Virus record (IMG/VR): IMGVR_UViG_3300030451_004057 | Coordinates: 1-42,365 of that record | DNA from: a virus | Direction: 5' to 3' (one strand) | DNA length: 42,365 bases | Notes under the pieces: model-generated | The model's database searches: none | What the model saw: only the letters and a program-made list of their open reading frames with translations | Told to the model about the DNA's origin: nothing | Part shown: in pieces, positions 1 to 37,517 of the stretch | Position numbering within the stretch: position 1 is the first letter of the stretch | Layout: the number at the start of each line of letters is the position of its first letter | Made by a program: the position numbers and the translations under genes

Positions 1-1701
1 ATAAATAAAAGGGATGCAAGAGTTATTATCAACATTAGCTAAGGGATTAAAATTAAACATTGTGCTATCGGTACAACCATAAACAACCTCTTCACAACTA
101 CCATTATCAGTATTAGCAAAAGGATTATAGTTAAAAGCTAACGGGTCAGTACATCCATATACGTACGCTATACATGTATCACTTGCAGTTGCTTGTGGGT
201 TATAATTATACATTGTTGGGTCCATACAACCGTAAATATAAGCTACACAACCGCCATTATCTACGTTAGCTAGTGAGTTGTAGTTATACATTGTGTCATT
301 CATACATCCGAATATAGCCAAAGTGTTACAGCTATCTTGTATATTTATATCTGTGTAATAACCGTTGGCAGTGTCTACGTGGTAATCCAAATAAGCTGGT
401 GATATACAGCCAGGATAGTAATAACAATCCAAGCTAGTGTTAGCGCTGTCAACGTAGTTAAACGCAGTGCTGTCCATACAGCCAAATATTTTTTCTTCAC
501 AGATATTTCCACAATATGTATTGCCTGTGTATTTTTTAAACGGTATTATAAAAGGTGGTTGTACGCTTAAAGCTGTGTCACCTTCAGGACCTATTAAAGT
601 AAAACCGCACTCAGGAGCTGTAAGCTGTGCTTGTTGTGTTACAAACAGCTTTGCGTATACAGGCGCTGGCGCATATAAGCCTAAATTTTCTACTTGATTA
701 AAAGACTGTGATGTCATATAAAAATCCATAGTATCACCATCTTGCCATATTTCTAATCTAGTACCAACCCAACCGTTACCAGCAAGATCATGTAGTATTA
801 AAGTATAGCCGCAAGAGTCAATGTCTTCCATTGTATTTGCTGTAGGACTGTAGTTATACATTGTACTATCAGTACAGCCATATATTTTTAAAGTTACACA
901 GCTACTGTCATCTATTGTGGCTAGTGGATCATACTCAACATAGTCGTCATCCATACAACCATATACAGGTGGTGGAGGTACACAAGTGTCAGATGTAAAA
1001 ACATGACTTGTGTCATTGCCAAAATTAGCAACATCACCGTAAACTACTGTATCGTTGCCACATTGTATAACATAATAAGATCCATCTTGACCTCCCCATA
1101 AACTACCAGCAATACCATCGCCATAGCTATCATAAATAGTAAAAGTTAATTCACCAACAGGTAAACAGTTGGCTATAAACTGTGGTTGGTAATTAGGCAC
1201 GTTACTATAAGGACCTCCTGATAATAATAAATTACCCAAGCTATCTCTTATGTCCCAAGTTGTTTCACTAGGATATTGATCTAAATTTATATTAACAAGT
1301 GTAGGTACGCAAACAGGTGGTGCGGGTGGTGGACAGGGTAGTATGTGAACAACAGTATCTAGCTGTGTAAATGGTACACCTTGTAATTGTAAATCAAGTA
1401 TCAAACCTTGACAAGCGTTACCCATTTTAAACCACGCAGGCTGTTGAGATGTCCAGCCATCGCCAAAATTGTCTGTAAGTGTTACAGTGTAATATCCAGT
1501 GTCTAGTGGTAGTATAGTATCTAAATATTCATAAGGTGCGCTAGGTTGCACGAAAATGGCCGTATCGCCATTGTCATTAGATACCATAAAGAAATTAGAT
1601 TCAGATGGGCCATAAAAATCAAACATTACTTGAAAATGCACCCAAGATTGTTGCGCTAATATATTTAAAGGTAATAATAGTAGTATTAGTAGTTTTTTCA
1701 T
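1..1701 (-). CDS. Exported Cys-rich repeat protein, adhesin-like (partial, runs off left edge)
   Basis: An uninterrupted minus-strand frame of 567 codons starts at 1701 and leaves the window without a stop. The first 18 residues (MKKLLILLLLPLNILAQQ) form a typical Sec signal peptide with cleavage likely after LA. Three DxxGDGW-like motifs follow near residues 77, 190 and 304 (DNFGDGW, DSYGDGI, DLAGNGW). From about residue 246 there are seven imperfect copies of a Cys-rich unit of the form [YF]GCxDxxxxNYxxxAxxDxxSC. Such units are common in secreted or cell-surface proteins of marine Flavobacteriia. The start overlaps the upstream 44-residue gene in an ATGA arrangement, so it belongs to the late transcript. 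A virion fibre would not need a Sec signal, so an exported surface protein or a host-derived gene is as likely as a tail adhesin. Function is inferred. Confidence 0.85.
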   Translation of the reverse strand, partial: MKKLLILLLLPLNILAQQSWVHFQVMFDFYGPSESNFFMVSNDNGDTAIFVQPSAPYEYLDTILPLDTGYYTVTLTDNFGDGWTSQQPAWFKMGNACQGLILDLQLQGVPFTQLDTVVHILPCPPPAPPVCVPTLVNINLDQYPSETTWDIRDSLGNLLLSGGPYSNVPNYQPQFIANCLPVGELTFTIYDSYGDGIAGSLWGGQDGSYYVIQCGNDTVVYGDVANFGNDTSHVFTSDTCVPPPPVYGCMDDDYVEYDPLATIDDSSCVTLKIYGCTDSTMYNYSPTANTMEDIDSCGYTLILHDLAGNGWVGTRLEIWQDGDTMDFYMTSQSFNQVENLGLYAPAPVYAKLFVTQQAQLTAPECGFTLIGPEGDTALSVQPPFIIPFKKYTGNTYCGNICEEKIFGCMDSTAFNYVDSANTSLDCYYYPGCISPAYLDYHVDTANGYYTDINIQDSCNTLAIFGCMNDTMYNYNSLANVDNGGCVAYIYGCMDPTMYNYNPQATASDTCIAYVYGCTDPLAFNYNPFANTDNGSCEEVVYGCTDSTMFNFNPLANVDNNSCIPFIY

Positions 1702-1832
1702 TTAACTTTATTTTTTCTACTGCCTAAGCGAGATCTACGCCTACCACAGCTGGTTACAGCAAAAGGGTGTTTATGCTGAACATAACCACGCTTAGACTTT
1801 GTAAACATTTTATTTTGCCTTTGGCTGGCCAT
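1698..1832 (-). CDS. Tiny basic protein (44 aa)
   Basis: A 44-codon frame starts at 1832, sharing its A with the stop of the upstream 46-residue gene (TAATG), and ends at 1698 in an ATGA overlap with the large exported protein. The product is strongly basic and serine-rich, with RGYVQHKHPF and CGRRRSRLGSRK segments. The tight coupling on both sides supports it as a real translated gene despite its size. No family is recognised. Basic tiny proteins among phage late genes may be DNA-bound or virion-internal, but nothing here shows that. Confidence 0.6.
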   Translation of the reverse strand: MASQRQNKMFTKSKRGYVQHKHPFAVTSCGRRRSRLGSRKNKVK

Positions 1833-1972
1833 TACTTTTTCTTTTTTGGTACGCAGTTAGGTACAGTTCTACCTCCTTTCTTTTTAGTACCAACCATCAT
1901 ATACCCCTTCCAACAAGGCGTTTTCTTTTTCATTTTTTTTAGTGCGCCGTCAGGCGTTATGTTATAATTCAT
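1832..1972 (-). CDS. Tiny basic protein with VGTKKKGGRTVPNCVP motif (46 aa)
   Basis: This 46-codon frame starts at 1972 and ends at 1832 in a TAATG junction with the next gene. The product reads as a short acidic-polar start, then CWKGYMMVGTKKKGG, then VPNCVP and a Lys tail. The KGY-x-x-VG-x-KKK-GG-x-x-VPNCVP pattern is one I recall from small or C-terminal segments of phage proteins in marine viromes, so it is probably a conserved phage element rather than a chance frame. The two cysteines (20 and 40) could bind metal or form a disulfide. Function is unknown. Confidence 0.65.
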   Translation of the reverse strand: MNYNITPDGALKKMKKKTPCWKGYMMVGTKKKGGRTVPNCVPKKKK

Positions 1973-1983
1973 GTCTTTTATAT

Positions 1984-2223
1984 TTAATCAATTTCGTCTA
2001 TATTACTTCTGTATTCAGGTGCTGATTGATCTTTTTCTGGCACACCTTCTACCGTAGTGATTTGCCCAGTTTTACTTTTGTAAACTTTCTTACCTGAGTC
2101 TTTTGCTTTTTTGTATTTTGGATCATTTGTTACATCTTCACCAAGGTCTTTTGTATTTACTGGTTTTTTCATAAACGGAGCACCAGGCATTTTAAAACCT
2201 TGACTTGCTTTAAATTTAGGCAT
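1984..2223 (-). CDS. Small Lys-rich protein with N-terminal GFKM motif (79 aa)
   Basis: The start at 2223 follows an A-rich leader (AAAAATAAAAAAA) without a Shine-Dalgarno sequence, as elsewhere in this window. The protein is short and hydrophilic: it begins MPKFKASQGFKMPG and ends with an acidic tail. The GFKM segment near the N-terminus recurs in other small proteins here (starts at 36017, 36382 and 40104). No enzyme motif, signal peptide or membrane segment is visible. It lies between two other small basic late genes. A virion-associated or assembly role is a guess based on position. Confidence 0.7.
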   Translation of the reverse strand: MPKFKASQGFKMPGAPFMKKPVNTKDLGEDVTNDPKYKKAKDSGKKVYKSKTGQITTVEGVPEKDQSAPEYRSNIDEID

Positions 2224-2241
2224 TTTTTTTATTTTTAATTA

Positions 2242-2532
2242 TTAACATTTCCAACGTCTACGAGCTGCTTTACCTCTTTCACCTGTCCAACCTTTTGACC
2301 TTGCACAAAAAGATTTTCTACGCTTAGCAGCTTTGCTACCAGGTTTTACTTTGCCCGTTACCGCGGTTTTTAACTTACTACCAGGATTTTTACGTCTATA
2401 TTCTTTAACGCCTTTTGCTGTCATACCCGCGCCTTCTTTTACTGTGCGGAAATTACGACCCTTACCTTTTGTAGTTTTTCTCGGTTCTTTGCTTTTTTTT
2501 CTTTTTAAAAAAGGATTATCTAGTTCAAACAT
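2242..2532 (-). CDS. Conserved basic phage protein (KPGSKAAKRRKSFCARS motif; DUF6321-like)
   Basis: This 96-residue, strongly basic protein carries GAGMTAKGVKEYRR, a Pro-Gly-Ser-Lys-Leu segment near the middle, and KPGSKAAKRRKSFCARSKGW towards the C-terminus. I recognise this pattern as a conserved domain of unknown function seen in many tailed phages; the DUF6321 assignment is from memory and was not checked. The gene shares one base with the preceding thioredoxin-fold gene (TAATG at 2532), so translation is probably coupled. The charge suggests nucleic-acid contact. No catalytic motif is visible. Confidence 0.8.
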   Translation of the reverse strand: MFELDNPFLKRKKSKEPRKTTKGKGRNFRTVKEGAGMTAKGVKEYRRKNPGSKLKTAVTGKVKPGSKAAKRRKSFCARSKGWTGERGKAARRRWKC

Positions 2533-2855
2533 TAAAAGTCACTCATTAGTTGATTATCTATTTCTTCTTGTATCTCTTCTCTTGTGGCTGCCATTTTAAA
2601 ACTTAAATCAGCTTGAAATCTAGCAACCTCTTCTCCATCTTTGAATATAATTATAGTAGGTATAACTGCAATTTTATGTTTTTTAGCTAACTCAGCATTT
2701 TTACCTATATCAACAAACGATATAGTCTTGCAGTCTTTTAGGTCCATGACCCAAGGCACTTCATTAGCTTTATTCCACTCAGCGTTAAACTGAGATACTT
2801 GTATTTGACTAAACATGCTATTACTTAGCAGCATTAGTATTAAGATATATCTCAT
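2532..2855 (-). CDS. Exported thioredoxin-fold protein lacking CxxC
   Basis: The 107-residue product starts with a hydrophobic signal sequence (MRYILILMLLSNSMFSQ) with cleavage likely after FS. The mature part resembles the second half of thioredoxin: a strand, a helix with NAELAKKHKI, then AVIPTIIIFKDGEEVARF, which contains the cis-proline loop (IPT) and the following strand pair. The CxxC active site is absent; a single Cys lies in LKDC. It is therefore unlikely to be a disulfide oxidoreductase and may be a binding or chaperone-like module outside the cytoplasmic membrane. The start overlaps the upstream gene by four bases (ATGA), placing it in the envelope-directed group at this end of the late transcript. 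Confidence 0.75.
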   Translation of the reverse strand: MRYILILMLLSNSMFSQIQVSQFNAEWNKANEVPWVMDLKDCKTISFVDIGKNAELAKKHKIAVIPTIIIFKDGEEVARFQADLSFKMAATREEIQEEIDNQLMSDF

Positions 2856-3130
2856 CTGTCGTATAGTTTGTCTTCTATTTTTTCTAACGTTTCTTTTATT
2901 TCCTCAACGTCTTTCTGCGTGTCCATAATAGTATTGCGTATCATTTGATCTTTCATATCAAACTCCATACGTGTAACTTCTGGGGTAACCACAGGTAATT
3001 CTTTTGCCTCTGCAATATCAGCTTGTAATGTAAACCACATACCAGCTATTGTTGCTATTGCAAAGCCTATTGCGGTTAATGTTTTTATACTTACTTTAAA
3101 ACTAGTATCTTCATTTAATTCTTTTGCCAT
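2852..3130 (-). CDS. Small one-TM protein with coiled coil
   Basis: This 92-residue protein has a short cytoplasmic N-terminus, one membrane segment at about residues 16-36 (TLTAIGFAIATIAGMWFTLQ) and a charged C-terminal helix rich in Glu, Lys and Ile heptads (about 55-92), likely a coiled coil. It overlaps the downstream thioredoxin-fold gene by four bases and follows two lipoprotein genes. Phage proteins of this form include holin- or spanin-like and membrane-anchored scaffold proteins, but no family is recognised. A role in lysis or envelope modification is inferred from topology and neighbours only. Confidence 0.7.
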   Translation of the reverse strand: MAKELNEDTSFKVSIKTLTAIGFAIATIAGMWFTLQADIAEAKELPVVTPEVTRMEFDMKDQMIRNTIMDTQKDVEEIKETLEKIEDKLYDR

Positions 3131-3148
3131 TTGTTGTGTAGTTATAAC

Positions 3149-4237
3149 TTAAAATATTACATAATTTACTCCAAACTTAAAATCGTACCACTCTCTATTC
3201 CAGTATTTATTATATTTAGATTCTATAAAATAACCCAAATTTTTATTTTGTTTAATACCGTATATAAAACCCGCGGAGTAATCATACCATTGTTCTCCAT
3301 TGTTAAAGTTGTGATATGAAAATTCATTACCACTATCATGATGGTACGGCATCAAATTACCCCAAGCGTGCAACCAGGTTTTTTTGCTATATTTATAATA
3401 ATCAAAACCAATTACAATAGAGTGTTGCATAATTCTATCAAGTTCGTTTTTCTTTTTATCAACATAATCAGATAATACTTGTGGTATTACTACAGCTTCC
3501 CAAACTTCAGCGCTTGTAGCTACAACTTCACCATCTGGATTTGTGTATGTTGAATTAGCTACATCTACATTATAACCTTCTTGTAAAGCTAAATAAGTAT
3601 AATGTAAATTACCATTATCTAACATCCACTCAGCAAGCGGATCGTAACCATAAGGCTCTGCTAAACGATGAGCTAAACCTATATTCCAAGATAGATTTTT
3701 ATGTTTTCTATATCTATATCTTTCTGACGCTTCAAAATATTTAACATCTGCAAAGCCATCTTCTAAATATTCTAACTTTAAAGCAAAGAAATTTATGCAA
3801 ACTTCATCTTGACAACCATCATCAGAACTCCACCTTAAAAAATGGTGTTGATCCATGTAGTCTATACCCTCTTGTCTTTTGTAGTCTACTTCAAATAAAT
3901 ACTCTAGACCTCTAACTTTACCAACCGTGGCAGCGTCGCTATAGTTTGATTCAGTTCCATCGTAAAACGTTTGAGCTTTATTTTCGTAACCAAACCTAGC
4001 TATTTTACGAAGACCAACTGTAAAGTTGTAATCATATGGCGTTGATATTGTACTTGTAGATAGACCGTTATCTACTGAAAATACTTTAACATCTGATAAC
4101 GATGTACCACCATTTACTGCAGCATAAAATGTTGAAAATTTTAACAACGATTGCAAATCTATATCTTGTCCACAACAAGTCTTTGGTGTTGAACAAGAAA
4201 CTAAAGTTATTAATATTAGTATAATTAGTTTTTTCAT
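3149..4237 (-). CDS. Lipoprotein, possible outer-membrane beta-barrel
   Basis: The 362-residue product has a lipoprotein signal (MKKLIILILITLVSCSTPK), with lipidation expected at the Cys of VSC. The rest is rich in Tyr, Trp and Phe in alternating polar/aromatic strands, for example HLGY- and WNIGLAHRL-like segments. It ends in FKFGVNYVIF, a terminal aromatic residue as in the C-terminal beta signal of outer-membrane barrels. The gene overlaps the upstream 183-residue lipoprotein gene by four bases. A phage gene for an envelope protein suggests alteration of the infected cell's surface, such as exclusion of other phages, or help with exit. The barrel call is inferred from composition and the C-terminus; the lipoprotein signal is directly visible. 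Confidence 0.75.
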   Translation of the reverse strand: MKKLIILILITLVSCSTPKTCCGQDIDLQSLLKFSTFYAAVNGGTSLSDVKVFSVDNGLSTSTISTPYDYNFTVGLRKIARFGYENKAQTFYDGTESNYSDAATVGKVRGLEYLFEVDYKRQEGIDYMDQHHFLRWSSDDGCQDEVCINFFALKLEYLEDGFADVKYFEASERYRYRKHKNLSWNIGLAHRLAEPYGYDPLAEWMLDNGNLHYTYLALQEGYNVDVANSTYTNPDGEVVATSAEVWEAVVIPQVLSDYVDKKKNELDRIMQHSIVIGFDYYKYSKKTWLHAWGNLMPYHHDSGNEFSYHNFNNGEQWYDYSAGFIYGIKQNKNLGYFIESKYNKYWNREWYDFKFGVNYVIF

Positions 4238-4785
4238 TCTTTTATTTTAATTGTTATATCGTGTGGCGCGTATTCATTACCACCAAAATATGGGTATAAA
4301 TAATATCTACGTATTAAACCCCAATTGCCTTCAGGTCTTCTACGTACGAGTGTAGTATCGTTATCTATTACTATTACATAATAAAACGTTTTTATATCAA
4401 TTGTAGCGTCATAAATTACATCTGGCTCTATAGTTCTTATTGTAGCAGAGCTATGCTTACCTTCTTCATGGCGCAACCAACAAAGCTCAAGTTCACCATG
4501 CATATACCTCCAGCCTAAACGTATAGAGTATTTTTGATGACGTAAGCCAAAATCGCTCATACCGTATATCTTATTTACATCGTCTTGATTTTCTGGTATT
4601 TCGCTAGTATAATAAGCAGATTCATCTAGCATAAATTGAAAACTTATTCTTGAGTTATTTGGGTGATTTATAAAAGTACCAGAGCTATGCTTACCAGCGG
4701 GGATAGTATAAACTCTAAAACCAAGATCATCAACCTCTTTGCTACACGAAACAAATACGAGTAATAATAATAATTTCTTAATCAT
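4234..4785 (-). CDS. Lipoprotein, probably surface-exposed
   Basis: The 183-residue product begins MIKKLLLLLVFVSCSKEVDD, a clear lipoprotein signal with the lipid-bearing Cys in VSC. The residues after the Cys (SKEVDD) are acidic, resembling the lipoprotein export signals that send lipoproteins to the outer face of the outer membrane in Flavobacteriia. The mature part is mostly beta, with many His, Tyr and Arg residues and a final DITIKIKE strand. No family is recognised. It overlaps the preceding giant gene by eight bases and the following lipoprotein gene by four, so all three are probably translated from one message. Confidence 0.75.
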   Translation of the reverse strand: MIKKLLLLLVFVSCSKEVDDLGFRVYTIPAGKHSSGTFINHPNNSRISFQFMLDESAYYTSEIPENQDDVNKIYGMSDFGLRHQKYSIRLGWRYMHGELELCWLRHEEGKHSSATIRTIEPDVIYDATIDIKTFYYVIVIDNDTTLVRRRPEGNWGLIRRYYLYPYFGGNEYAPHDITIKIKE

Positions 4786-7700
4786 GATAGTAACAGAGCC
4801 CTGATTTATTAGTAGTTTTCATTTTGCATCTATTACCGTCTGATTTAATTTTTTTACATTGAACTTGTTTACCGTCTTCTCTTTTTTCTACTTTTTGATG
4901 TACTGTACAAAAGTTTTGCCCTGGCAAAGCAGTGTTGGAACATCGCTTACCTGACTTACTTACCGCAGCACATTGAACCTCTTTATTACCTTCTTCTTTT
5001 TGCTTTTTTTGATCGTCTATATTTTTTTCTATTACAGCTTTGTTTTCTTCTTCTTTTATTCTATCAGTTTCTATTTTCTTTTGTTTTCTTCTTTCTTTAG
5101 CCGCTTCTTTCTTTAACTCTTTAACTTCTTTTTTAGCATCAAGCAAAGCTTGTGGCTGTATGTCAAACGACCATGTACTCCAACCTAAAAGCATAGCTAT
5201 TCTTTCAAGTTTTCTATGATCACTATTCATTGCTTCCCTTACATTCCTAACCTTACCATGTATTCTTGACAGTGGAACATTTGTTGTTGCTTCTATCGCA
5301 GCAAATGCAGCGTCATAAAGAGGGTTATCAATATGAGTTTTAGGCATGTGTTTGATTACATCTTTATTAAACTCCCAAGACTGAAAACCTCCGTATAATT
5401 TTCTAGCTTTAATACCTATTGGAACACCTAAATTTAAAGCTTCAATAACCGTGTAGGCGTGATCTGCCTTATGTCCTTTTGCATCTTCTTCAAGGAATTT
5501 TAACACAGTATTTTTTGCTGTAGCAAACACCGCACCATAAATACCAGAACCTCTTAATATAGTGTCTGCCATGCCATTTGCCACTCTTGCATATTTTTGT
5601 TCGTTTTTAGCTTGTTTTTTCTCATCTTCCTCTTCATCATCACCAAATGTAACTGCAAATAAAGCTTGTTGTAAACTGTAGAATATAGCATTTTGTATAG
5701 CACCATAATACAATATTTTTGATATATGAGTTTTGTCATCACCTCTACGATTTATTAAATCTTGAGCAGCACGTTTCATTAACCTGTTGTACTGCATAGG
5801 CGTGTTTTGAAAAGCAAATATTACTTTACCAAGTGATGAAGCTTGTATTTGTGATATTTTATCTGGTCTAGCAGACTGTTGAGTTTCTTCTGCTATTTCT
5901 TGAAACTCTATAAAAGCCTGTGCTTCAGCATCAGCCCTTGACATGCCTTCTTTAATATACTTGTTTATTCTATTTCTAATAAATGTAGCACCACCAAAAG
6001 CAATTGCAAAACTATCAGCTATTTGCGTAGGTAAAAAACCCTTTTGTAGTAACAAGCCTATTGCTGTTTTTATAGGATTTCTAGAACCTTTAACAGCAGC
6101 TACTAATTCATTAGCATTTACATCGTGCGATAAACCAGCTCTTCTTTGTTTTAAGAAAGGTGAGTTAAATAACATTAAAAAATCTGACCAAAATTGTTTT
6201 TGATTAGCAAAAGCTATACCAGCTTTTATAGGGTTGTTATCAGACCAGTTTATAAAGTTAATTGTAGATAATGTTTGCAGTAGTGATGATCTAGCATTAA
6301 AAAACATTGTTGTACCAATAGAACCATGTACCCAATTCATAAACTTATTCATATGACTATCTCCACCTCGTCTATTTGTACCATTTTTCATACGATAAAA
6401 CATATCTTCTAAAGCAAGCCTGTGGTCTAAACCGTATTCAGCTTCAATTTTATTTAAGTTCTTTTCACTAAATATAGTGTTCCAATTGTCTTCAAACTGC
6501 TGCATTAAATTTTGTCTAGCTCTGTTTGTGGCCTCGTTAAGGTTTGATGTTAAAGTTTCTGATAACCAACCTATATCATCTGGTGTAGTTAAACCCCCAC
6601 CCGTTTCTACTATAGAACCATATTGATCTGCATATAACTTTAAAGCAGCATCACCTTCTACAAGTTTAACTATAGCATTTTTATCAGCTTGACTTAAACC
6701 GGGTAAATCAATACCCGCTTTGTTATAGTTATAAATCATTATAGCTTGTTCTACTGTAAAGTCACTTCCAGGTGCTTTGTCTTTTAAAGACTTTGTTATT
6801 TTTTTGTTAGATTTTTTTAATGCTTTTAAATCTAAACCAACTGATTGTTTTAAAGCATTTACAGCTCTAACAGCTTTGGCATAAGGTGTTATAATATGAT
6901 CATTAAAAAACTTCATATGAGCTTCACCTTTTTTACCTTTACCTAAAAACGGATATATCAAGCCTTTTAAGTCTTCAGCTGATGGTGGTAAGAAAAACTT
7001 CCATCTACCTTTACCTTTACCTCTTTGTCTTGCTTTTGCTTTACTAAACGTTTTTTCTTTTTGTACTCCTCTTGTGTCTTCTATTATTTGATTAAACTCT
7101 TGATCTAAATCTTTTTGATCTTCTTTAACTTGCTCCGATTTACCTTTCATATCAAGCTGATCCATAACATCTTTAACAGCATCTACGTTAGGCAAAGCAT
7201 CGTCTACAAAATAAATATCATTATAACCCTCGCCAAACTTTTCAGCTATCCACACAGCTTTTGCTTCACCTGTACTATTAGCTAAACCAGTTATATTTTC
7301 TAAAGGTATATTAATACCTTTTGATTTTAACCACTCATGTATTGCTATTGCTGAAGCTTGTGGTCTTGCTGTTAATACAAATGTATTTTCTGGGCCAAAC
7401 TTTTCTATTCTGTTTCTAAGCTTTTGCATTAATGGTCCTTCAACACCACCTCTTACGTTTACAAAATCATCAAAGTTAAACTCATAACCATCTTTCATAA
7501 GCTGTGGTCCTTGTATTGGCCACTGCTCACTACTTATTTTTATTTCATTACCTGTTTGTGGGTCTGTGGCTATAACAAAGTTTTCACCTTTTACTATTAA
7601 TGTTTCATCAAAATCAAAAACGCTAGCGCCTCTAGGTGAAACTTTTTTACTTTCCATTATCTCACCTTTACGCTTATTTAATTTAGGTTTATAAACATTA

Positions 7701-10700
7701 TCTCTTGTAGAGGAGTTTGTCTCTATTTTATGCTTTACGCTTTCAATAGCAGAAGTGCTCATTTCCTCTATATTGTTACCATCAACTATGCTTTCTATAG
7801 GTTGTAATAGTACAGGATCTAAATCTTCTGTTTTTGCAAGTTCTGATAAAGTTATAGGGTCAAACAGTCTACTTCCTATAGATGGAGATTTTGTTTTGAA
7901 ACCAGCGGCTGTCATAGCATCGTCCCAAACAGCAGGTATAATATTAACTTCATAGCCGTCAAAAACTTCTTCAATATTTAGTTCGTTGGTGTTTTTATAA
8001 GACTCTATTATTCTTTTATTTATTTCGGCTTTAGATATAGAGTGTTCAAATCTAAGAGCTTCTTTTATTGGTACGCCGTTTTTATTTGCCCAAGCAATAA
8101 TTTTATCAACGTTTTTAACAATACCTCTTACAGGTGCAGCTTTCCTAAGAGCAGAGTTCATTGTAGAACCTAGCGTTGTAATTAAAGCTCCAAACTCTTT
8201 CATTGACATTTCGCCTGCCTGAACTTTTGACCAAGCATTATCTAATATTGCTTTAGCTAAAACTCTAGCATCTTTAGACTGTTGTTCTCTTCTAACACCA
8301 TCTCTATCTTTTATAGCATCAACGGTTTTTTCTTTTAATTGAGTTGTTTTAACAGGAACCCACTCGCTTTTACCGTCCCAAATTTTAACAGTATCACCCT
8401 CTTGTTTTATCCAAGTATTAGTTTCTGGATTTTTAATTATATTAGGATTATCAGTATTGTTCATTAAAGCAAGATGATCCTCCGCGTTTTGTATCGCGTG
8501 GTTACGATTACTAGAATCAACTATTTCACCTTTTTTATTTTTAACTTTTGGTGGTTTACCGTTAACATTTTCAGGGTTATCAATTACATTTAAATCTCCT
8601 GGTTTTTTTGGTACGGCTCTATTATCACCTATTTTACCTGAGCCTCCAAAAGATAATTTAAACGGATCAGACATAACTTGTCTACCCGCTTCAACTTGAG
8701 ACATGCCGTTTTCTATAAGAACGCCAGCGGTTTCGTTTGCAATTTTTCTTAATCTATTTACGCCAGAATAATTACCGTTATCATCTTTTTTAATATATAC
8801 ATCGTTTGTTGCGCCCGTGTAGCCAAGAGCTTTTCTTAAATTAAGATCTGTGTAATACATATCTATTCTGTTTAAAACAAACTCACTAATAGTCATATCA
8901 GTATCTGCTTCAACTTCCATAAACATATTAACGTCTTCTTTAATAAGCTTAGCTATTTTATTTTTTTGAGCTTTTGTTTTTGTATTACCATAAGCATCTT
9001 CTACTATTTTATTAGCTCTTTCAATAGTAACACCTTCTGGCGAGCCATAACTAGCTTCAACTTGTTCTATTATAATATCAAGTGGATCTGCTTGTATTTT
9101 TTGACTAAAACTAATTTCTGATTTACCATCAGATAACTTAGCGGCAAGCTTTTCGCTTAAAGTACCCATTTCTAAACCCTCAAGTCTTACGCTTTGATTA
9201 GCTGATAAAGCTGCTAAATTTAAAACCAATTGTCTTATAGCACCATCAGCACTTGTGCCAGGTCTAAAACTACCATCTTCATTAATACCAAATGTATCTA
9301 AAAAATCAATTGGATCTACTTCAGTTATTTTAGTTTGTCTAGCTTTACCAACACCAGTACCGCTTTGATCTTGACCAGCCATTGCTATTCTACTGCCTTT
9401 ATCATAAAACTTACCAAGAGCACCTTGAGCTATACCAGTAGCCTTACCAGTTCTATCTTCACCTTCTGGTAATAAATCAAACAAAGCTGGATTAAACGTA
9501 CCGTCTTCATTTAAACTTCTACTAAGAATAAGCTCTTGAGCTTGCTGTCTCATAGTATCGTCTAAATCTTGATTAGCTAGTATTCTAGCTGGTTCAATAC
9601 CAAACTCACCCGCTATAACTTCTAAAACACCATACAAAGGGCCTAAAGGTGTTACATCACTTTCTTTTGTTGGTCTTTTTGTCTTACCGTCTTTTTCAAC
9701 TTTAGCAACTTCGCTAATTAATTTTTTAAAATCTTTGTAAAAAGCACCATCAAAATTACCTTTGTAGTTTGATACAACTTCTTTTATTCTTTGTTTACCC
9801 TGGTCTGAAACTTCTAAAACATTATCTACAACTAAACCTGTTACTATTTCTTCAATAGCTTGTTTAGCACCAGGTGATAAATCCATGTTTTCTAAGCGCT
9901 CCATGTAAGCATCTGACTCTGATTGTAGTGTTTCGCTTAAATCACCATAATCGTCATATGTTTTATCAAGAGATGTTATACCTTCTTCTGGTGTGGCTTT
10001 TTGCATTTCAAGTAACACATCACCTTTTGCTCTAAATATAATTGATTTACCAGCACCACCGGATACACCTGTTAACCAACCAAATAAACTTTCGTTAACT
10101 GATGGGTCAAAGTTAGATAATAATCTTTCGCCTAGCTTTTCTTTTACTTTTTGTATAAAATCACGCATAGGCCCTGGATCTAGGTTTATACCAGAAGCAA
10201 TTAATCCGTCTAGTCTAGGTGTACTAGTTATAAAAGTAAATGCGTTCCACTGATCATTTGACTCTTGAAACTCATCTTTTGTTTTATATTTTTTATTACC
10301 GCCTTCATCTTGAACAAACTTATCAAAATCTTTTTTAACTAAAGGATCTTCTTTTAAAACTTGCTTAACGTTTTTAGAAAAATTTATTTCAGATTGCTTA
10401 GGTGCTTTGGCATCTTTAAACATTTTACCTTTAGCGCCTTGAGCTATCATTCTAGCTATTGCTTTGTTTGGCTTGTTGTTTTTAATAGAAACATCATAGT
10501 CTCTCATAAAGTTTTTAACATCTTCAACGGTGTCAAACTTAATATCACGGCCTAAGTAGTTTTGGGCAAAACGTCTAAACACGCCTTTTATTTTTGTAAA
10601 AAAGCTATCGTTGAATTTTATTTGACCTTTACGATACATTTCCATAGCTATAGCCATAGCTTCTTCGCCTTGTTGGTTAACTTTATAACTATGAACTCTT

Positions 10701-13700
10701 TTGTCAAAAAGTGCAGCTGACTCTTTAGACATGTGGACACTTGGGTCAGTTAATATATCTATAACTGCTAAACCTAATTTTTTCCTTGCAGCTGGATCTT
10801 GTTTTAAAGTATTGTGAAAACTAACATGTACAAACTCATGAGAAGCCGTGTTAAACATACCGTCTGTAAGCGCTTCTTTTTTGTTAACAACCATTTCAAG
10901 ACGGTTTAAAGTGCCATCTTCGTTAAACACTGGTTTCATACTACCATAATTAGCAGCGGTACCTTGTATAAGGTTTAACGCGTTCATTACGTCACCTTCA
11001 GTTGACTTCATGTTTTTAGCAATTTCTTTTGCTTCAGCTATTTCTTCAGGCGTTGAGTTAGGGTCGTCAATTACATCTAAAGCTGCTCTTCTAAGACCAT
11101 CAGCCTCCATACCAACATCTTCAACAGCATCTACAGATCTACCAAATGTTGCTTCAGAAACGTCTTCTGCCATCTCTTTTGAGTCTTTAACTTCTCTAAC
11201 TACAAACGGCACACCACCCTGCTCAGCAACTTCTTTTTCATAAGCCTTCATCATTTCCATTTCTTGCTTATAATTTTCGTCAACTACATTAGGCGGGTAT
11301 TTATCTATTATAGTTTGTTTGTCAGAGTTTCTTTTGTCAACTTGTTTTTGAATAGCCTCTATTTCTTCCGTCTTTTGTTCTGGCGTTAAATTTTCATCTG
11401 CCATTACATTTTCAGCTTGTAACCTTGCTTGGTAATTTGCTTTTTCTATTTTTATTAAATCAGCTTTTTCAGAATCGCTTAACAAATTAACTCGTTTAAT
11501 GTCTTGCTCTATCAATGTGTTTGCTTCGTCAACTAATTCAGCATATTCTCGCTCTAGTCTAGCTCTTCTAACTGTAACACCAGAACCATCTCTATCTGCT
11601 AAAGAAGCTATTGATTCAGCTACTTTAGAAATTCTACCAGCTATTTCACCAACTCTTTGATTGTTATCTTTTGTTTGAAAAGGAGCTAATAATCTAGGCG
11701 TTAATCTTACACCTTGTAAACCACCACTAATAAGACCACCACTAACAAAAGACTCTGTAACACCGTCAAATATATCAGCTTCTTTATTACCAGACATTAT
11801 ATCAGCAAAGTTACTACTCATACTAGCTAAACTTTCTGAAAAACCTTCTTCAAGAAATTCTAAACCACTTGATTTAAGGTTGTTGAAAGTAAATATATTT
11901 TTTCTTAAATATGTTTCGTATCCAAGTTTGTAAACATTTTTACCAGCATTTTTAGTTAACGCTTGAGCCGTTTTACCAACAGCGCCAAGTGTAACTCTTT
12001 CAGATAATGCTTCAGCGGCACCACTAAAAGTTGCGTTAGCAACCATAGTACCAAAACTTAAATTATTACCATACAAACCACCACTTCTTAAATACTCTTC
12101 TTTTTCATCTTGCAGTTGTCTATACTTGTTACCAGCTGCAGAAGCACCCATAACAAATAATGAAGCACCTCCAGTTGTTGCCATTAAAATTAAGTTAGGT
12201 ATTTGTTGAGCAAATAAATTAGCACCCCACTCAACAGCATCGCCAAAGCCATCAATGTCTTCAAATGAAACTGGTCTTCTAACTTTGTTTGTTAGATTTT
12301 CTTCTTGCCATCTATCAAGACTATCACCAAACTTATTCCAATTACTTTCATTAGTTGTAATAACTCTACCACCAACTTTTTTTGTTGTTTCGTCATCAGC
12401 AAAAACCCAACCTAAAGGACTACTATTTTTATAAACAGTACGCATGTAACCTTCTAAAACAGGATCGTCAATTTTACTTATAATTTCATCTGGAACTTGA
12501 AAAACCATATCAACAGCATCGCCAATACCTTGTATAAGATCTATAGTTGCATTACCTAAATTTGCAAACCATGTTGTAACTACACCTCTATTTCTACCAA
12601 GCTCTTTAGCTATTGTTACAAGTTCTTGCTCTTCCAAGCCTCCTTTTTGTATTTTAGAAAATAAACTTTTTGAAAGATCTATATACCTATTACCTTCATC
12701 TCGTAAAAAACTATATCTAGCGCCTTTGTTTCTGTACTCAGATATTATATTATTTAAATCTTCTTGAGCTTTATCTATTTCTTCTTGACTATTGTACTTT
12801 TTATTTTTAGCGTCATTAATAATTTTTTCAATATCTGTATCTTCAAAATACTTTACTAAGTCTTTTAGTTCTTTATCTATTTTGTTAAGATCTTCGTTTA
12901 CAATGTCAAACTTTTGAAGAAGGTCTTGGTTTTCTGCTTTTTTCTTATCAGCTCTTTTTACAGCTGCATCACTTAAACTTCTTTCTTCTTTGCTTTCTTG
13001 AAAATATTTTGTTCCAAATTTTTCTTTTTGATATTTAGCTATACGATCTTCAAATGCAGACTTTTCTTTACCAGCTTTAAATTGTTTTTCTATAAAATCA
13101 TTCAGCTCTTTTGTTTTTTCTTCGTCTCCATTTATTTCCGCGGCAACTCTTTGTTCAACTTCTTTAAATTTTTCACTATTTATAACATCAGTTTTCCACT
13201 GTGCTTGTAACTCTTCGCCTGTGTTTTGTTCATCACCAACTATACTATCATAAGCAATTTTTTCATTTGGATTTTCTTCAAAATATCTTTGTAAAGCTTT
13301 ATCTTGTATATGTGTTAGCCTAAGAGTTTCGTGTTGTTGGGCGTCTTTATCTTTTGAGGTTAATCCTTTTTCTTTTAATAAACCCTCTATTCTTTCGTTT
13401 TCTTCATTTAGCTCAGCAGCTTTACCTTGTAAAAAACCTGGGGTAATATCTGATCCAGGTGTTTTTTGAATATTCTGAAAACTTCTTGCCGCAATAACTT
13501 CGTCTTTATTTTTATTATGCTGTTCTATAAAAGCTCTTACTTCGTCGTCAGTTGCGTTTGCTAATTCAGGAACTGCGTTTCTAACGTTGTTTATATATTC
13601 TTTAGCGTTGTTATAAGAGTTGTTTATAACTTCTGTTTCTTCATCAGAAATTTCTCTAGTTTCATCAGCTAATGTATCTAAATATGTTTTAGGCTTTTCT

Positions 13701-13906
13701 TCTTCTTTTTTTTCGTCTTGCTCTTGTACAATGTTTGATATAGCGCTAGAAGCAAACTCGCTTGAAGAATATTCGGGTACCGGTTGATTAACAACCGTTC
13801 TTTCAGGATATTTTTCTTTATAATTACTAATCATTTGCTTAATCTCCTCATCAGAAGATCCTTGCTTAATCATAGTTACAATAAACTTTTGTAATTCCTC
13901 GTTCAT
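4778..13906 (-). CDS. Giant polyvalent virion protein: zincin motif, HAD phosphatase domain, twin zinc-binding modules (3042 aa)
   Basis: This is the largest gene in the window. The first ~450 residues are Lys/Glu-rich helices, followed by a hydrophobic, Gly/Ala-rich region at about 555-760. A zincin motif, SHEFVH, has HExxH at residues 1023-1027. A HAD-superfamily domain has motif I FDFDETL (nucleophile D2098, D2100), motif II LTAR (T2179), a Lys in GEAKA and motif IV FVDDALPN. A long helical region with hydrophobic stretches follows (about 2330-2890), then a Lys/Glu coiled coil, then two Cys/His modules from about 2976 to the end, each of the form C-x(7-9)-C-x(10-11)-C-x(2-3)-H. This mixture fits the polyvalent proteins of phages and conjugative elements, thought to enter the cell with the DNA. 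Its place beside internal virion candidates fits injection. The individual activities are unproven. Confidence 0.85.
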   Translation of the reverse strand: MNEELQKFIVTMIKQGSSDEEIKQMISNYKEKYPERTVVNQPVPEYSSSEFASSAISNIVQEQDEKKEEEKPKTYLDTLADETREISDEETEVINNSYNNAKEYINNVRNAVPELANATDDEVRAFIEQHNKNKDEVIAARSFQNIQKTPGSDITPGFLQGKAAELNEENERIEGLLKEKGLTSKDKDAQQHETLRLTHIQDKALQRYFEENPNEKIAYDSIVGDEQNTGEELQAQWKTDVINSEKFKEVEQRVAAEINGDEEKTKELNDFIEKQFKAGKEKSAFEDRIAKYQKEKFGTKYFQESKEERSLSDAAVKRADKKKAENQDLLQKFDIVNEDLNKIDKELKDLVKYFEDTDIEKIINDAKNKKYNSQEEIDKAQEDLNNIISEYRNKGARYSFLRDEGNRYIDLSKSLFSKIQKGGLEEQELVTIAKELGRNRGVVTTWFANLGNATIDLIQGIGDAVDMVFQVPDEIISKIDDPVLEGYMRTVYKNSSPLGWVFADDETTKKVGGRVITTNESNWNKFGDSLDRWQEENLTNKVRRPVSFEDIDGFGDAVEWGANLFAQQIPNLILMATTGGASLFVMGASAAGNKYRQLQDEKEEYLRSGGLYGNNLSFGTMVANATFSGAAEALSERVTLGAVGKTAQALTKNAGKNVYKLGYETYLRKNIFTFNNLKSSGLEFLEEGFSESLASMSSNFADIMSGNKEADIFDGVTESFVSGGLISGGLQGVRLTPRLLAPFQTKDNNQRVGEIAGRISKVAESIASLADRDGSGVTVRRARLEREYAELVDEANTLIEQDIKRVNLLSDSEKADLIKIEKANYQARLQAENVMADENLTPEQKTEEIEAIQKQVDKRNSDKQTIIDKYPPNVVDENYKQEMEMMKAYEKEVAEQGGVPFVVREVKDSKEMAEDVSEATFGRSVDAVEDVGMEADGLRRAALDVIDDPNSTPEEIAEAKEIAKNMKSTEGDVMNALNLIQGTAANYGSMKPVFNEDGTLNRLEMVVNKKEALTDGMFNTASHEFVHVSFHNTLKQDPAARKKLGLAVIDILTDPSVHMSKESAALFDKRVHSYKVNQQGEEAMAIAMEMYRKGQIKFNDSFFTKIKGVFRRFAQNYLGRDIKFDTVEDVKNFMRDYDVSIKNNKPNKAIARMIAQGAKGKMFKDAKAPKQSEINFSKNVKQVLKEDPLVKKDFDKFVQDEGGNKKYKTKDEFQESNDQWNAFTFITSTPRLDGLIASGINLDPGPMRDFIQKVKEKLGERLLSNFDPSVNESLFGWLTGVSGGAGKSIIFRAKGDVLLEMQKATPEEGITSLDKTYDDYGDLSETLQSESDAYMERLENMDLSPGAKQAIEEIVTGLVVDNVLEVSDQGKQRIKEVVSNYKGNFDGAFYKDFKKLISEVAKVEKDGKTKRPTKESDVTPLGPLYGVLEVIAGEFGIEPARILANQDLDDTMRQQAQELILSRSLNEDGTFNPALFDLLPEGEDRTGKATGIAQGALGKFYDKGSRIAMAGQDQSGTGVGKARQTKITEVDPIDFLDTFGINEDGSFRPGTSADGAIRQLVLNLAALSANQSVRLEGLEMGTLSEKLAAKLSDGKSEISFSQKIQADPLDIIIEQVEASYGSPEGVTIERANKIVEDAYGNTKTKAQKNKIAKLIKEDVNMFMEVEADTDMTISEFVLNRIDMYYTDLNLRKALGYTGATNDVYIKKDDNGNYSGVNRLRKIANETAGVLIENGMSQVEAGRQVMSDPFKLSFGGSGKIGDNRAVPKKPGDLNVIDNPENVNGKPPKVKNKKGEIVDSSNRNHAIQNAEDHLALMNNTDNPNIIKNPETNTWIKQEGDTVKIWDGKSEWVPVKTTQLKEKTVDAIKDRDGVRREQQSKDARVLAKAILDNAWSKVQAGEMSMKEFGALITTLGSTMNSALRKAAPVRGIVKNVDKIIAWANKNGVPIKEALRFEHSISKAEINKRIIESYKNTNELNIEEVFDGYEVNIIPAVWDDAMTAAGFKTKSPSIGSRLFDPITLSELAKTEDLDPVLLQPIESIVDGNNIEEMSTSAIESVKHKIETNSSTRDNVYKPKLNKRKGEIMESKKVSPRGASVFDFDETLIVKGENFVIATDPQTGNEIKISSEQWPIQGPQLMKDGYEFNFDDFVNVRGGVEGPLMQKLRNRIEKFGPENTFVLTARPQASAIAIHEWLKSKGINIPLENITGLANSTGEAKAVWIAEKFGEGYNDIYFVDDALPNVDAVKDVMDQLDMKGKSEQVKEDQKDLDQEFNQIIEDTRGVQKEKTFSKAKARQRGKGKGRWKFFLPPSAEDLKGLIYPFLGKGKKGEAHMKFFNDHIITPYAKAVRAVNALKQSVGLDLKALKKSNKKITKSLKDKAPGSDFTVEQAIMIYNYNKAGIDLPGLSQADKNAIVKLVEGDAALKLYADQYGSIVETGGGLTTPDDIGWLSETLTSNLNEATNRARQNLMQQFEDNWNTIFSEKNLNKIEAEYGLDHRLALEDMFYRMKNGTNRRGGDSHMNKFMNWVHGSIGTTMFFNARSSLLQTLSTINFINWSDNNPIKAGIAFANQKQFWSDFLMLFNSPFLKQRRAGLSHDVNANELVAAVKGSRNPIKTAIGLLLQKGFLPTQIADSFAIAFGGATFIRNRINKYIKEGMSRADAEAQAFIEFQEIAEETQQSARPDKISQIQASSLGKVIFAFQNTPMQYNRLMKRAAQDLINRRGDDKTHISKILYYGAIQNAIFYSLQQALFAVTFGDDEEEDEKKQAKNEQKYARVANGMADTILRGSGIYGAVFATAKNTVLKFLEEDAKGHKADHAYTVIEALNLGVPIGIKARKLYGGFQSWEFNKDVIKHMPKTHIDNPLYDAAFAAIEATTNVPLSRIHGKVRNVREAMNSDHRKLERIAMLLGWSTWSFDIQPQALLDAKKEVKELKKEAAKERRKQKKIETDRIKEEENKAVIEKNIDDQKKQKEEGNKEVQCAAVSKSGKRCSNTALPGQNFCTVHQKVEKREDGKQVQCKKIKSDGNRCKMKTTNKSGLCYYHD

Positions 13907-34116: not shown

Positions 34117-34391
34117 TTTGATCTACCTTCAGCAAAACCTTTAAAAACTCTTTGTTTCTTTTCTTCTGGCTCTTTACCTTCAAGTATATTTTCCTCTTCT
34201 TGTATTCTGTTTAATATTTCAAAAGCGTCAAATATTGCTAGTTTTTTTGTAGCCGCAGCGTTCTTTAATCTATCAGCACTAACATCATCTTCTGTGTTTG
34301 TTATAATTTTTTCTTTAGCAACATTGATTAATTCTTCAACTGCCCTGTGCCCAGCTTGTATTATAAGTTTCTTGGTTTCTTTGATATTCAT
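34113..34391 (-). CDS. Terminase small subunit candidate
   Basis: The 92-residue product is helical and charged, with DRLKNAAATKKLAIFDAFEI in the middle. It overlaps TerL by four bases (ATGA), the usual place of TerS. No helix-turn-helix is plain from the sequence. The start at 34391 lies 56 bases inside the end of the preceding gene, a long overlap for this array, and no later in-frame ATG keeps a sensible protein. TerS is inferred from position and size. Confidence 0.65.
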   Translation of the reverse strand: MNIKETKKLIIQAGHRAVEELINVAKEKIITNTEDDVSADRLKNAAATKKLAIFDAFEILNRIQEEENILEGKEPEEKKQRVFKGFAEGRSK

Positions 34392-34926
34392 ATTTCATTG
34401 TAATAAATTTATTCATTATTCTATAAAGCCTTTCACCATCTACAACAAATTCATATTCATCGTTTGGACAAAAACCAATAACATCACCTTCTTTTAAATA
34501 ATTACTGCTATATTTAACCATTCCCGTTAAAGGTTTTTCTGGATTTAAACTATATTTCCAGTCGTTTTTTAGCGGCTTTACAAAACAATAGCCTTCTAAA
34601 GGCTTCCACTTGTCAAGTCTTTTGTAAGCATATACTTGATCTTGTTGTACAACGTAAGTAGTTTCATTTATAAAACTTCTACTATTTTTTTCTCTACCTT
34701 TAACATCGTACCATCTACGAAATATATTGTGATTAACTATTACAGTGTCTCCCACTTGTATTTCTGTTTTATAGGCTAAGGGTATAGATTTAACTATACC
34801 CTGCCTATTTATAAACTCATGCTTTGATATATCTGTATTTAGTATTAATTCTTTATTACCTACTTCTTTAGTGTTATTGTATCTAGCACCTTTAGGTTCT
34901 ATTATAAAGTAAAATGGACTTTTCAT
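34336..34926 (-). CDS. Tandem GroES-like (co-chaperonin fold) protein
   Basis: The 196-residue protein shows two GroES-like beta-barrel patterns. Domain 1 (about 1-103) has GIVKSIPLAYKTEIQVGDTV, then a long insertion and DQVYAYK. Domain 2 (about 110-180) has GYCFVKPL, LTGMVKYSSNYLKEGDVIGF and ERLYRIMNKFITM, matching the GroES order of strand, mobile-loop region, xGxV...KxGDxVxF and final strand. Ordinary GroES has one domain of about 95 residues. A separate canonical GroES lies at 36819-37076 and GroEL at 37504-39066, so this may be a second cap for the chaperonin or a structural protein built on the same fold. Paired-domain co-chaperonins are rare. Assignment is by eye. Confidence 0.6.
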   Translation of the reverse strand: MKSPFYFIIEPKGARYNNTKEVGNKELILNTDISKHEFINRQGIVKSIPLAYKTEIQVGDTVIVNHNIFRRWYDVKGREKNSRSFINETTYVVQQDQVYAYKRLDKWKPLEGYCFVKPLKNDWKYSLNPEKPLTGMVKYSSNYLKEGDVIGFCPNDEYEFVVDGERLYRIMNKFITMKYEYQRNQETYNTSWAQGS

Positions 34927-35802: not shown

Positions 35803-36017
35803 TATAATTTATTTTTACCTCTTAATTCGTTTAATTGTTTTTTCAACTTAGTTATAGTTTTACCACCTTCCATAGCTGAAACAACTTCGTTTTCAATATC
35901 TGACTTAACAAACTCTATTCTATCTTCTAAATCATTTATTTTTTCCTGTTTATTATCTCCTTTGTATTTATGTGTATCTGGGTTTTCTTTCATAAACCCT
36001 TTCATTTTAAATGCCAT
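35802..36017 (-). CDS. Small Lys/Glu-rich protein with FKM motif (71 aa)
   Basis: The 71-residue product begins MAFKMKGFMKENPD and then becomes a charged helix (INDLEDRIEFVKSDIENEVV, ending KLKKQLNELRGKNKL), likely a coiled coil. The FKM start resembles the N-termini of other small late proteins here. It shares one base with each neighbouring gene (36017 and 35802), so it is a member of the coupled run. Function is unknown. Confidence 0.7.
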   Translation of the reverse strand: MAFKMKGFMKENPDTHKYKGDNKQEKINDLEDRIEFVKSDIENEVVSAMEGGKTITKLKKQLNELRGKNKL

Positions 36018-36382
36018 TATGTTATTTTTTTTTCGTTATTATAAGCTAGTTTTTCCCAAGGCAAGCTTTTACTGCCTTCTCTATGCCACTTACCATTATA
36101 TTTAACTTTACCGTTTTTCCTATGATACGTGTTACTCCCATGCCTTATATAGTCATCGCCATATGATAACTCTCCATTATTCATCCTTTTCATATGGTCA
36201 TATTCATGAGCTATAACCTCTTTATATAGTTTACTACCAGGCTTTACTTTATCATTAACGTGTATAACGTTATTTTTAGTAGCTAAACCTAAAACTCCAT
36301 TATCTAGTTTTGATCTTTTTAAAGTAAAACCTTTATTATTATCATTAATAGATTTTCTACCTGTACCTAGTTTAAATCCCAT
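36017..36382 (-). CDS. Small zincin-type metallopeptidase-like protein
   Basis: The 121-residue product has VIAHEYDHMKRMNNGE, an HExxH site at residues 59-63 (H59, E60, H63) followed by acidic residues that could supply the third ligand. The surrounding pattern of KPGS, then a helix with HEYDH, resembles a minimal zincin. It opens with MGFKLGTGRKS, close to the FKM-type starts nearby. Placed beside a holin-like gene it could take part in lysis or in processing a head protein. Which is not shown, and no peptidoglycan-binding motif is visible. Confidence 0.7.
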   Translation of the reverse strand: MGFKLGTGRKSINDNNKGFTLKRSKLDNGVLGLATKNNVIHVNDKVKPGSKLYKEVIAHEYDHMKRMNNGELSYGDDYIRHGSNTYHRKNGKVKYNGKWHREGSKSLPWEKLAYNNEKKIT

Positions 36383-37082: not shown

Positions 37083-37517
37083 TTAAATAAAAATTAAAAA
37101 TACTTGTCTATCACCTGTTGTGGGATCAACTTTATGTTCTACATCAGAACTGTGTGCGCATAAATCACCTATACTTCTTTCAACTTCTACAACTTTACCA
37201 TCTTCTTTATAATATGTTTTACCTCCTTCATAATCTGCTTTTAATAAAATAGTACCGCCAAGCTCACACCACATCATGTGATTGTTTGAACCAGTATCAA
37301 CGTGCCAGTCATGACCATCTTTACCTGTTTGTTCTATTTTAAAATAAGACTCATCTTTAACAGTAAAACTAAAATCTATTTTTAATTTATTTATTATTTT
37401 ATCAACTACTTTGTTTTTTTCTTTTAAAACATAGTATTTGTTACCAACTGTTAAAGTACTATATAAATGAGAAATATCTTCTTTGTTTAAAAATGCTTTA
37501 TACTTACTTCTCATCAA
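37083..37517 (-). CDS. 2-oxoglutarate/Fe(II)-dependent oxygenase (prolyl-4-hydroxylase type)
   Basis: The 144-residue protein has the jelly-roll metal triad: HVD at residues 72-74 (H72, D74) and a distal H128 (VEHKVD), with R137 (GDRQVFLIFI) for 2-oxoglutarate. GGTILLKADYEGGKTYY between them is typical of the family's strand pair. Such enzymes hydroxylate proteins, nucleic acids or small molecules using Fe(II), O2 and 2-oxoglutarate, and are common in marine phages. Here the gene overlaps the end of groEL by 14 bases and precedes groES by six, so it is made together with the chaperonin. Its substrate is unknown. Confidence 0.85.
   Translation of the reverse strand: MMRSKYKAFLNKEDISHLYSTLTVGNKYYVLKEKNKVVDKIINKLKIDFSFTVKDESYFKIEQTGKDGHDWHVDTGSNNHMMWCELGGTILLKADYEGGKTYYKEDGKVVEVERSIGDLCAHSSDVEHKVDPTTGDRQVFLIFI

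Follow-up and report, generated by a model that had tools for sequence, protein, structure and literature searches.

Giant reading frame and its neighbourhood

The window, as we call the whole stretch of 42,365 bases analysed here, is a linear virus record and an uncultured fragment. The ORF list and the translation give a reading frame of 3042 aa at 4778-13906 without interruption, while the plus strand across the same span carries many stops. Hence the 3042-residue frame described in the earlier note is real, with the amendment that it lies on the minus strand (Table 1). PHROGs matches in the window include GroEL, GroES, terminase, portal protein and several virion proteins, and PHROGs has no family for the 3042-aa protein. 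The best match of the terminase is Caudoviricetes sp. MW202828 (62%), followed by Flavobacterium and Cellulophaga phages. The gene order is that of the phages phi38:1 and elemo: GroES, the terminase (TerL), portal, structural genes, two smaller proteins and the giant protein last. No match was obtained in tRNA and Rfam searches of the 42,365-base window or in a Phage_Mu_F family search of its record, and the PDB sequence search with the full protein and with profiles returned chance matches only. The phage has its own GroEL (37504-39066, PHROG E 1.7e-135) and GroES (34336-34926, E 6.9e-18) on the minus strand.

Scanning IMG/VR yielded 79 loci that hold relatives of the 3042-aa protein. Motifs were counted over 78 proteins, namely the window protein and those of 77 viral contigs, with one usable ORF per locus; two of these ORFs (L042 and L051) are truncated. 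Adding phi38:1 gp101 makes the set of 79 sequences. The host of the window phage is likely a member of Bacteroidota, since relatives within bacterial genome assemblies are found chiefly in Bacteroidota MAGs, plus a few odd bins.

The phage with the nearest terminase, MW202828 (L082), carries at 741-12320 a syntenic protein of 3859 aa, which contains HEFGH twice and a single Cys and lacks a HAD motif. Its annotation as 'reticulocyte binding/rhoptry protein' is surely a misnomer.

Table 1. Features of the giant protein and of the two adjoining genes; positions are those of the window.
Feature	Residues	Position	Strand	Basis
Whole ORF, putative giant ejection/polyvalent protein	3042 aa	4778..13906	-	ORF list, translation, 79 relative loci
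Conserved ejection-protein region	~507-873	11288..12388	-	hhalign vs phi38:1 gp101, phi18:3 gp123, elemo gp18
Sole near-transmembrane hydrophobic segment	572-590	12137..12193	-	KD 1.56
Likely zincin-type metallopeptidase domain	~975-1165	10412..10984	-	Conserved residues and model secondary structure
HEFVH	1023-1027	10826..10840	-	H1023, E1024, H1027 invariant
Predicted third zinc ligand	E1082	10661..10663	-	Invariant or nearly so
Conserved module, no assigned fold	~1400-1625	9032..9709	-	Repeated local matches in many members
HAD-superfamily domain	~2090-2262	7121..7639	-	AlphaFold model, HAD fold matches, conserved motifs, weak profiles
HAD motif I, DFDET	D2098 (nucleophile), D2100	7601..7615	-	DFD[DEGY]T in 78/78
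HAD motif II (LTARP from 2178)	T2179	7370..7372	-	78/78
HAD motif III	K2216	7259..7261	-	Invariant in alignment A5
HAD motif IV (FVDD from 2233)	D2235-D2236	7199..7204	-	78/78
All-helical C-terminal core	~2290-2943	5078..7039	-	Alignment A1, model, BFVD polyvalent matches
Zinc module 1, C-x9-C-x10-C-x2-H	2979-3003	4898..4972	-	Sub-threshold NCBIfam NF045806, E 2.6e-8
Zinc module 2	3017-3041	4784..4858	-	Sub-threshold Pfam DUF5763, E 0.0012
Putative second ejection protein, Cys-free	397 aa	13919..15112	-	Place of N4 gp51 and phi38:1 gp100; position and composition
Putative third ejection protein, Cys-free	215 aa	15125..15772	-	Place of N4 gp52 and phi38:1 gp099; position and composition

Ejection region and probable virion location

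The family profile of residues ~507-873 aligns with phi38:1 gp101 over 354 columns (hhalign probability 98.7%, E 3e-16), and hhalign gives 97.6% for phi18:3 gp123 and 99.1% for gp18 of Flavobacterium phage elemo. The entries of phi40:1 gp101 ('structural protein'), gp100 and gp099 are annotated 'experimental MS/MS proteomics analysis', and the same annotation stands in the entry of phi18:3 gp123. As the region is homologous to the virion protein gp101 of phi40:1 and the gene position is the same, the virion location of the window protein is, by analogy, well supported indirectly. phi38:1 gp101 has no more than the 507-873 region in common with the window protein and carries neither zincin nor HAD. 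Thus, neither of the two domains is needed for ejection as such.

The two long hydrophobic helices that had been proposed to cross membranes are not borne out. The best 19-residue Kyte-Doolittle window reaches 1.56 and the next one 1.12, the usual threshold being 1.6, so that a single segment comes close to it from below.

Predicted zincin domain

The HEFVH motif of the earlier note is confirmed, and we add to it the downstream E1082. Exactly one HExxH is present in 74 of the 79 sequences and two are present in L023 and L061, while the truncated L042 and L051 and phi38:1 gp101 have none. The motif arises in 1.9% of shuffled copies of the window protein. Around it the identity of the relatives to the window protein is mostly 13-36%, and the catalytic residues stand out against this drift. 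In the AlphaFold model of the N-terminal part, strands 988-994 and 1000-1008 are followed by the HExxH helix (1020-1034) and by a helix with E1082 (1076-1092), with a local pLDDT mostly above 85 at the zincin and an overall pTM of 0.45. HExxH with a downstream Glu on a subsequent helix is the motif arrangement of zincins. Matches to Pfam peptidases in this region are weak and scattered among the members. We conclude that residues ~975-1165 are likely a zincin-type metallopeptidase, as judged from conserved residues and the model. These two lines support the zincin that had been proposed before; an independent fold match did not come out of Foldseek, since the search of the PDB with the 1161-residue N-terminal model returned helical-bundle noise and no zincin among the matches listed.

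Among polyvalent proteins no domain is more common than the zincin, which was proposed to process them (PMC5512222). We rate self-processing first as the role of the domain in the window protein and host proteolysis second. That the protein is an injected effector whose zincin cuts host proteins and not its own polypeptide seems to us somewhat unlikely. The survey of polyvalent proteins, which favours processing of the own chain, gives host targets as the alternative (PMC5512222), and the zincin is the most divergent of the conserved domains (15-36% identity), as if it were chasing varied targets. However, one zincin per giant multidomain chain fits self-processing, and no host target is known.

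A separate protein of 121 aa at 36017-36382 (minus strand) contains HEYDH and is a possible second zincin; it has no Pfam match.

HAD-superfamily domain

The residues D2098, D2100, T2179 and FVDD, assigned earlier to a HAD domain, are found at the positions given for them, and K2216 now joins them as motif III. Motifs I (DxDx[TV]), II (S/T), III (K) and IV (DD) follow each other in the order and spacing of the superfamily. None of the 78 proteins has lost motif I, II or IV, the distance between II and IV is fixed at 53-54 residues, and the motifs are kept in relatives with just 42-54% identity across the HAD and the C-terminal half. The spaced I-II-IV set arises in 0.03% of shuffled copies of the window protein. 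Being kept in diverged relatives and rare in shuffled copies, the motif sets are not a product of chance.

Structure prediction started from an alignment limited to the window and viral contigs. The AlphaFold model of residues 2055-2975 (mean pLDDT 74.4, pTM 0.62) consists of an alternating strand-helix part at the HAD, followed by helices only. Its Foldseek matches in the PDB include the HAD phosphatases 1zjj (probability 0.89), 6aok (0.75), 3kzx, 2go7, 4f72 and 6cgk. The HAD structures among these fold matches have probabilities of 0.25-0.89 and weak E-values (0.6-3), which are expected for a small domain within a long query. Taken together, the strand and helix pattern of the model and the PDB fold matches (E > 0.1) correspond to the Rossmannoid HAD fold.

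Profile searches point in the same direction: DUF2608 has weak matches in 54 of 58 members, Pfam HAD is matched by 10, and others match HAD_2 or Acid_phosphat_B, the best E-values among members being 2.4e-6 for DUF2608 and 0.007 for HAD. No curated Pfam cut-off is reached by these matches, and the window protein matches DUF2608 only, with E 0.0025 and 17.8 bits where the cut-off is 22.6. Motifs, fold matches and these weak profiles all support the HAD core.

In 50,697 phage records the only match to the HAD is one of 24%, from an uncultured phage of 462 kb; the helical core has no significant match. The HAD half is so far a trait of uncultured phages, was found in no isolated phage and is new here. 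The main text of the polyvalent survey (PMC5512222) uses neither 'HAD' for a domain nor 'phosphatase', and our literature search for HAD in polyvalent proteins found no paper among those available to us.

Kinase nested in the HAD of seven relatives

In seven relatives (L031, L032, L039, L049, L066, L067 and L071) the distance between motifs I and II is exactly 278 residues, compared with about 79 in the others. The insert, a P-loop kinase, bears GGAGSGK[SG] or a close variant of it, and the three inserts tested clear the Pfam cut-offs for AAA_33 (E 5e-13 to 2e-10) as well as Zeta_toxin (E 2e-9 to 1e-10). It occupies one fixed site, between HAD motifs I and II. In the C-terminal-region tree, a quick build with SH-aLRT support only, the kinase-bearing members are spread over three places, which takes at least four changes. 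The window protein lacks a P-loop kinase of its own and so does not combine a kinase with a HAD phosphatase as PNKP does.

The obvious parallel to the nested kinase is the kind of kinase-phosphatase protein that repairs the ends of nucleic acids. The repeated placement of this kinase at one site of the HAD suggests that the kinase and the phosphatase share a phosphoryl-transfer substrate. This points towards nucleotides or nucleic-acid ends as the target of phosphoryl transfer. Zeta-type kinases act on UDP-sugars too, therefore the substrate is not narrowed to nucleic-acid ends. The earlier suggestion that the HAD acts on nucleotides or nucleic-acid ends thus receives circumstantial support from the relatives, with no substrate shown.

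Directly after the HAD, extra modules are present in L041 (~2320-2490) and L071 (~2837-3280), between copies of a QAK[IV]xFS-type linker. They look as if added by recombination at this linker.

C-terminal core and polyvalent likeness

The helical core and the HAD are the best conserved parts of the protein. With the C-terminal half as a query, Foldseek against BFVD finds PolyVal ART, MuF C-terminal and large polyvalent protein associated domain entries at a probability of 1.00; the matches also include structural proteins of the phages Gundel_1 (Tenacibaculum) and elemoC (Flavobacterium). No Pfam LPD domain is above threshold in the window protein. As in polyvalent proteins, enzymatic domains, here the predicted zincin and the HAD, are combined in one chain, to which some relatives add the kinase. 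That such a protein enters the cell with the DNA, as proposed earlier, is supported by the virion homologue, the N4-like gene position, the few Cys and these C-terminal matches, from which we infer it.

A recurrent cleavage-site motif, [IV]xFS[KR], was considered at the module borders and rejected, being not enriched beyond two conserved positions. FS[KR] is observed 211 times against 85 expected, apparently owing mainly to these two positions (after the HAD and in IFSKEN).

The ejection job is done without zincin or HAD motifs by phi38:1 gp101 and phi18:3 gp123 (MS/MS in phi40:1 and phi18:3), and the helical core is conserved as well as the HAD. Both facts would suit a structural ejection or tunnel protein only, with HAD and zincin inherited and of use in assembly or folding rather than for reactions inside the cell. 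We consider this unlikely, as HAD motifs I, II and IV persist in 78 of 78 proteins, and HExxH with its Glu in nearly all full-length members, whereas their surroundings are at 15-25% identity.

Cysteine exclusion and C-terminal Cys/His modules

The window protein has six Cys, all within the last 64 residues. They belong to the paired Cys/His modules recognised before, C2979-H3003 and C3017-H3041. Outside the last 100 aa, the 79 sequences have 11 Cys in 215,350 residues, as against 1.03% in the remaining ORFs of these loci. The modules occur in about 29 of the 78 members and are therefore optional; in these members one or two of them account for all or most of the departures from Cys exclusion. 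Zinc, we infer, would hold the thiols of the modules.

The count of Cys is zero in N4 gp50, gp51 and gp52 and in phi38:1 gp099 to gp101. For N4-like vRNAPs the absence of Cys was read as fitness for passing the tail or periplasm (PMC3715699, PMC3915230, PMC2784036). BLASTP of the two Cys-free neighbours of the giant gene against phi38:1 gp100 and gp099 gave nothing significant. The near-total exclusion of Cys from the giant protein and its complete lack in these two neighbours may mark out proteins that are ejected.

The similar size (3042 vs 3500 aa), the zincin motif (HELVH in N4), the scarcity of Cys and the same operon position adjoining two Cys-free proteins would suit a virion RNA polymerase of the N4 type that has diverged strongly. 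This reading is very improbable, since N4 gp50 shows four Pfam domains of the T7-like vRNAP (E down to 1e-97) and the window protein none, and profile comparison of the helical core and the zincin with N4 gp50 is not significant.

At the edge of the record, the frame at 1-1701 (minus strand) opens like a signal peptide and has 25 Cys among its 567 aa, in strong contrast to the Cys-free neighbourhood.

Proposed mechanism

We consider it probable that the protein is a large internal ejection and polyvalent protein of a podovirus-like phage from the neighbourhood of Pervagoviridae, with a self-cleaving zincin and a HAD phosphohydrolase acting on nucleotides or nucleic-acid ends. The computed parts of this explanation are the motifs, their conservation, the HAD fold match, the virion-protein homology, the Cys exclusion and the nested kinase of relatives. 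Ejection of the window protein, self-cleavage, the HAD substrate and the role of the zinc modules enter as proposals in the following steps.

Step 1: The giant protein would be packaged with the genome, go through the tail in the unfolded state and refold in the cell, residues ~507-873 presumably being part of the conserved ejection machinery. Passage through the tail unfolded is the proposed reason for the almost complete lack of Cys. The six Cys would be tolerated in the two terminal modules, able to hold thiols in metal.

Step 2: The single zincin most likely cuts its own polypeptide, in the head or after entry, and would thus free parts of it.

Step 3: The HAD, with its catalytic set intact, would be a phosphohydrolase at work in the first minutes after infection, and its most likely substrates are nucleotides or the ends of nucleic acids. 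Binding of nucleic acid is the probable task of the zinc modules.

Tentatively, we suggest one step further that the virion-injected phosphatase, or kinase-phosphatase in some members, might repair or remodel nucleic-acid ends or nucleotides before the phage expresses any gene, at once countering host nucleases or tRNA cleavage, and that the zincin might free the phosphatase from the ejection scaffold. This is a possibility rather than an expectation.

Three things are new: the HAD half that is constant in the family, the kinase nested within it in some members, and the extent of Cys exclusion. Ejection proteins are among the least understood parts of phages, and here a predicted peptidase and a phosphatase persist in about 80 environmental members, in a chain almost closed to Cys. 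The chemistry that a phage may bring before transcription becomes directly testable with one isolated domain of 170 residues. Cys exclusion may also serve as a simple composition signature for spotting injected proteins in unannotated phage genomes.

Comparison with known systems

The gp101 of the Cellulophaga phages phi38:1/phi40:1 (Pervagoviridae, Callevirus) is likewise the last large gene of the structural operon, shares the ~507-873 homology and has no Cys. However, it is 1691 aa long and has no HExxH, no HAD motifs and no C-terminal zinc modules, and its C-terminal half has no recognisable sequence kinship to the window protein. The gp18 of Flavobacterium phage elemo, a structural protein of 3694 aa, has the same position and no Cys, and both its ejection region (99.1%) and its zincin region (81%) align; unlike the window protein, it has no HAD motif I.

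The N4 vRNAP gp50 is similar in being giant, free of Cys, equipped with one HExxH zincin and placed beside two Cys-free proteins, and it is ejected (PMC5512222). It is an RNA polymerase, whereas the window protein has the HAD and no detectable polymerase. Enzymes of the PNKP type resemble the seven kinase-bearing relatives, as a P-loop kinase and a HAD phosphatase are combined in one protein. However, PNKP has the two in tandem, whereas in these relatives the HAD encloses the kinase; the window protein has no kinase.

Phage polyvalent proteins (Iyer et al. 2017, PMC5512222), which are delivered with the DNA, are multi-enzyme chains with a zincin-like MPTase. The window protein, with its predicted zincin and its probable delivery along with the DNA, is similar to them, and its C-terminal half resembles their PolyVal, MuF_C and large polyvalent domains.
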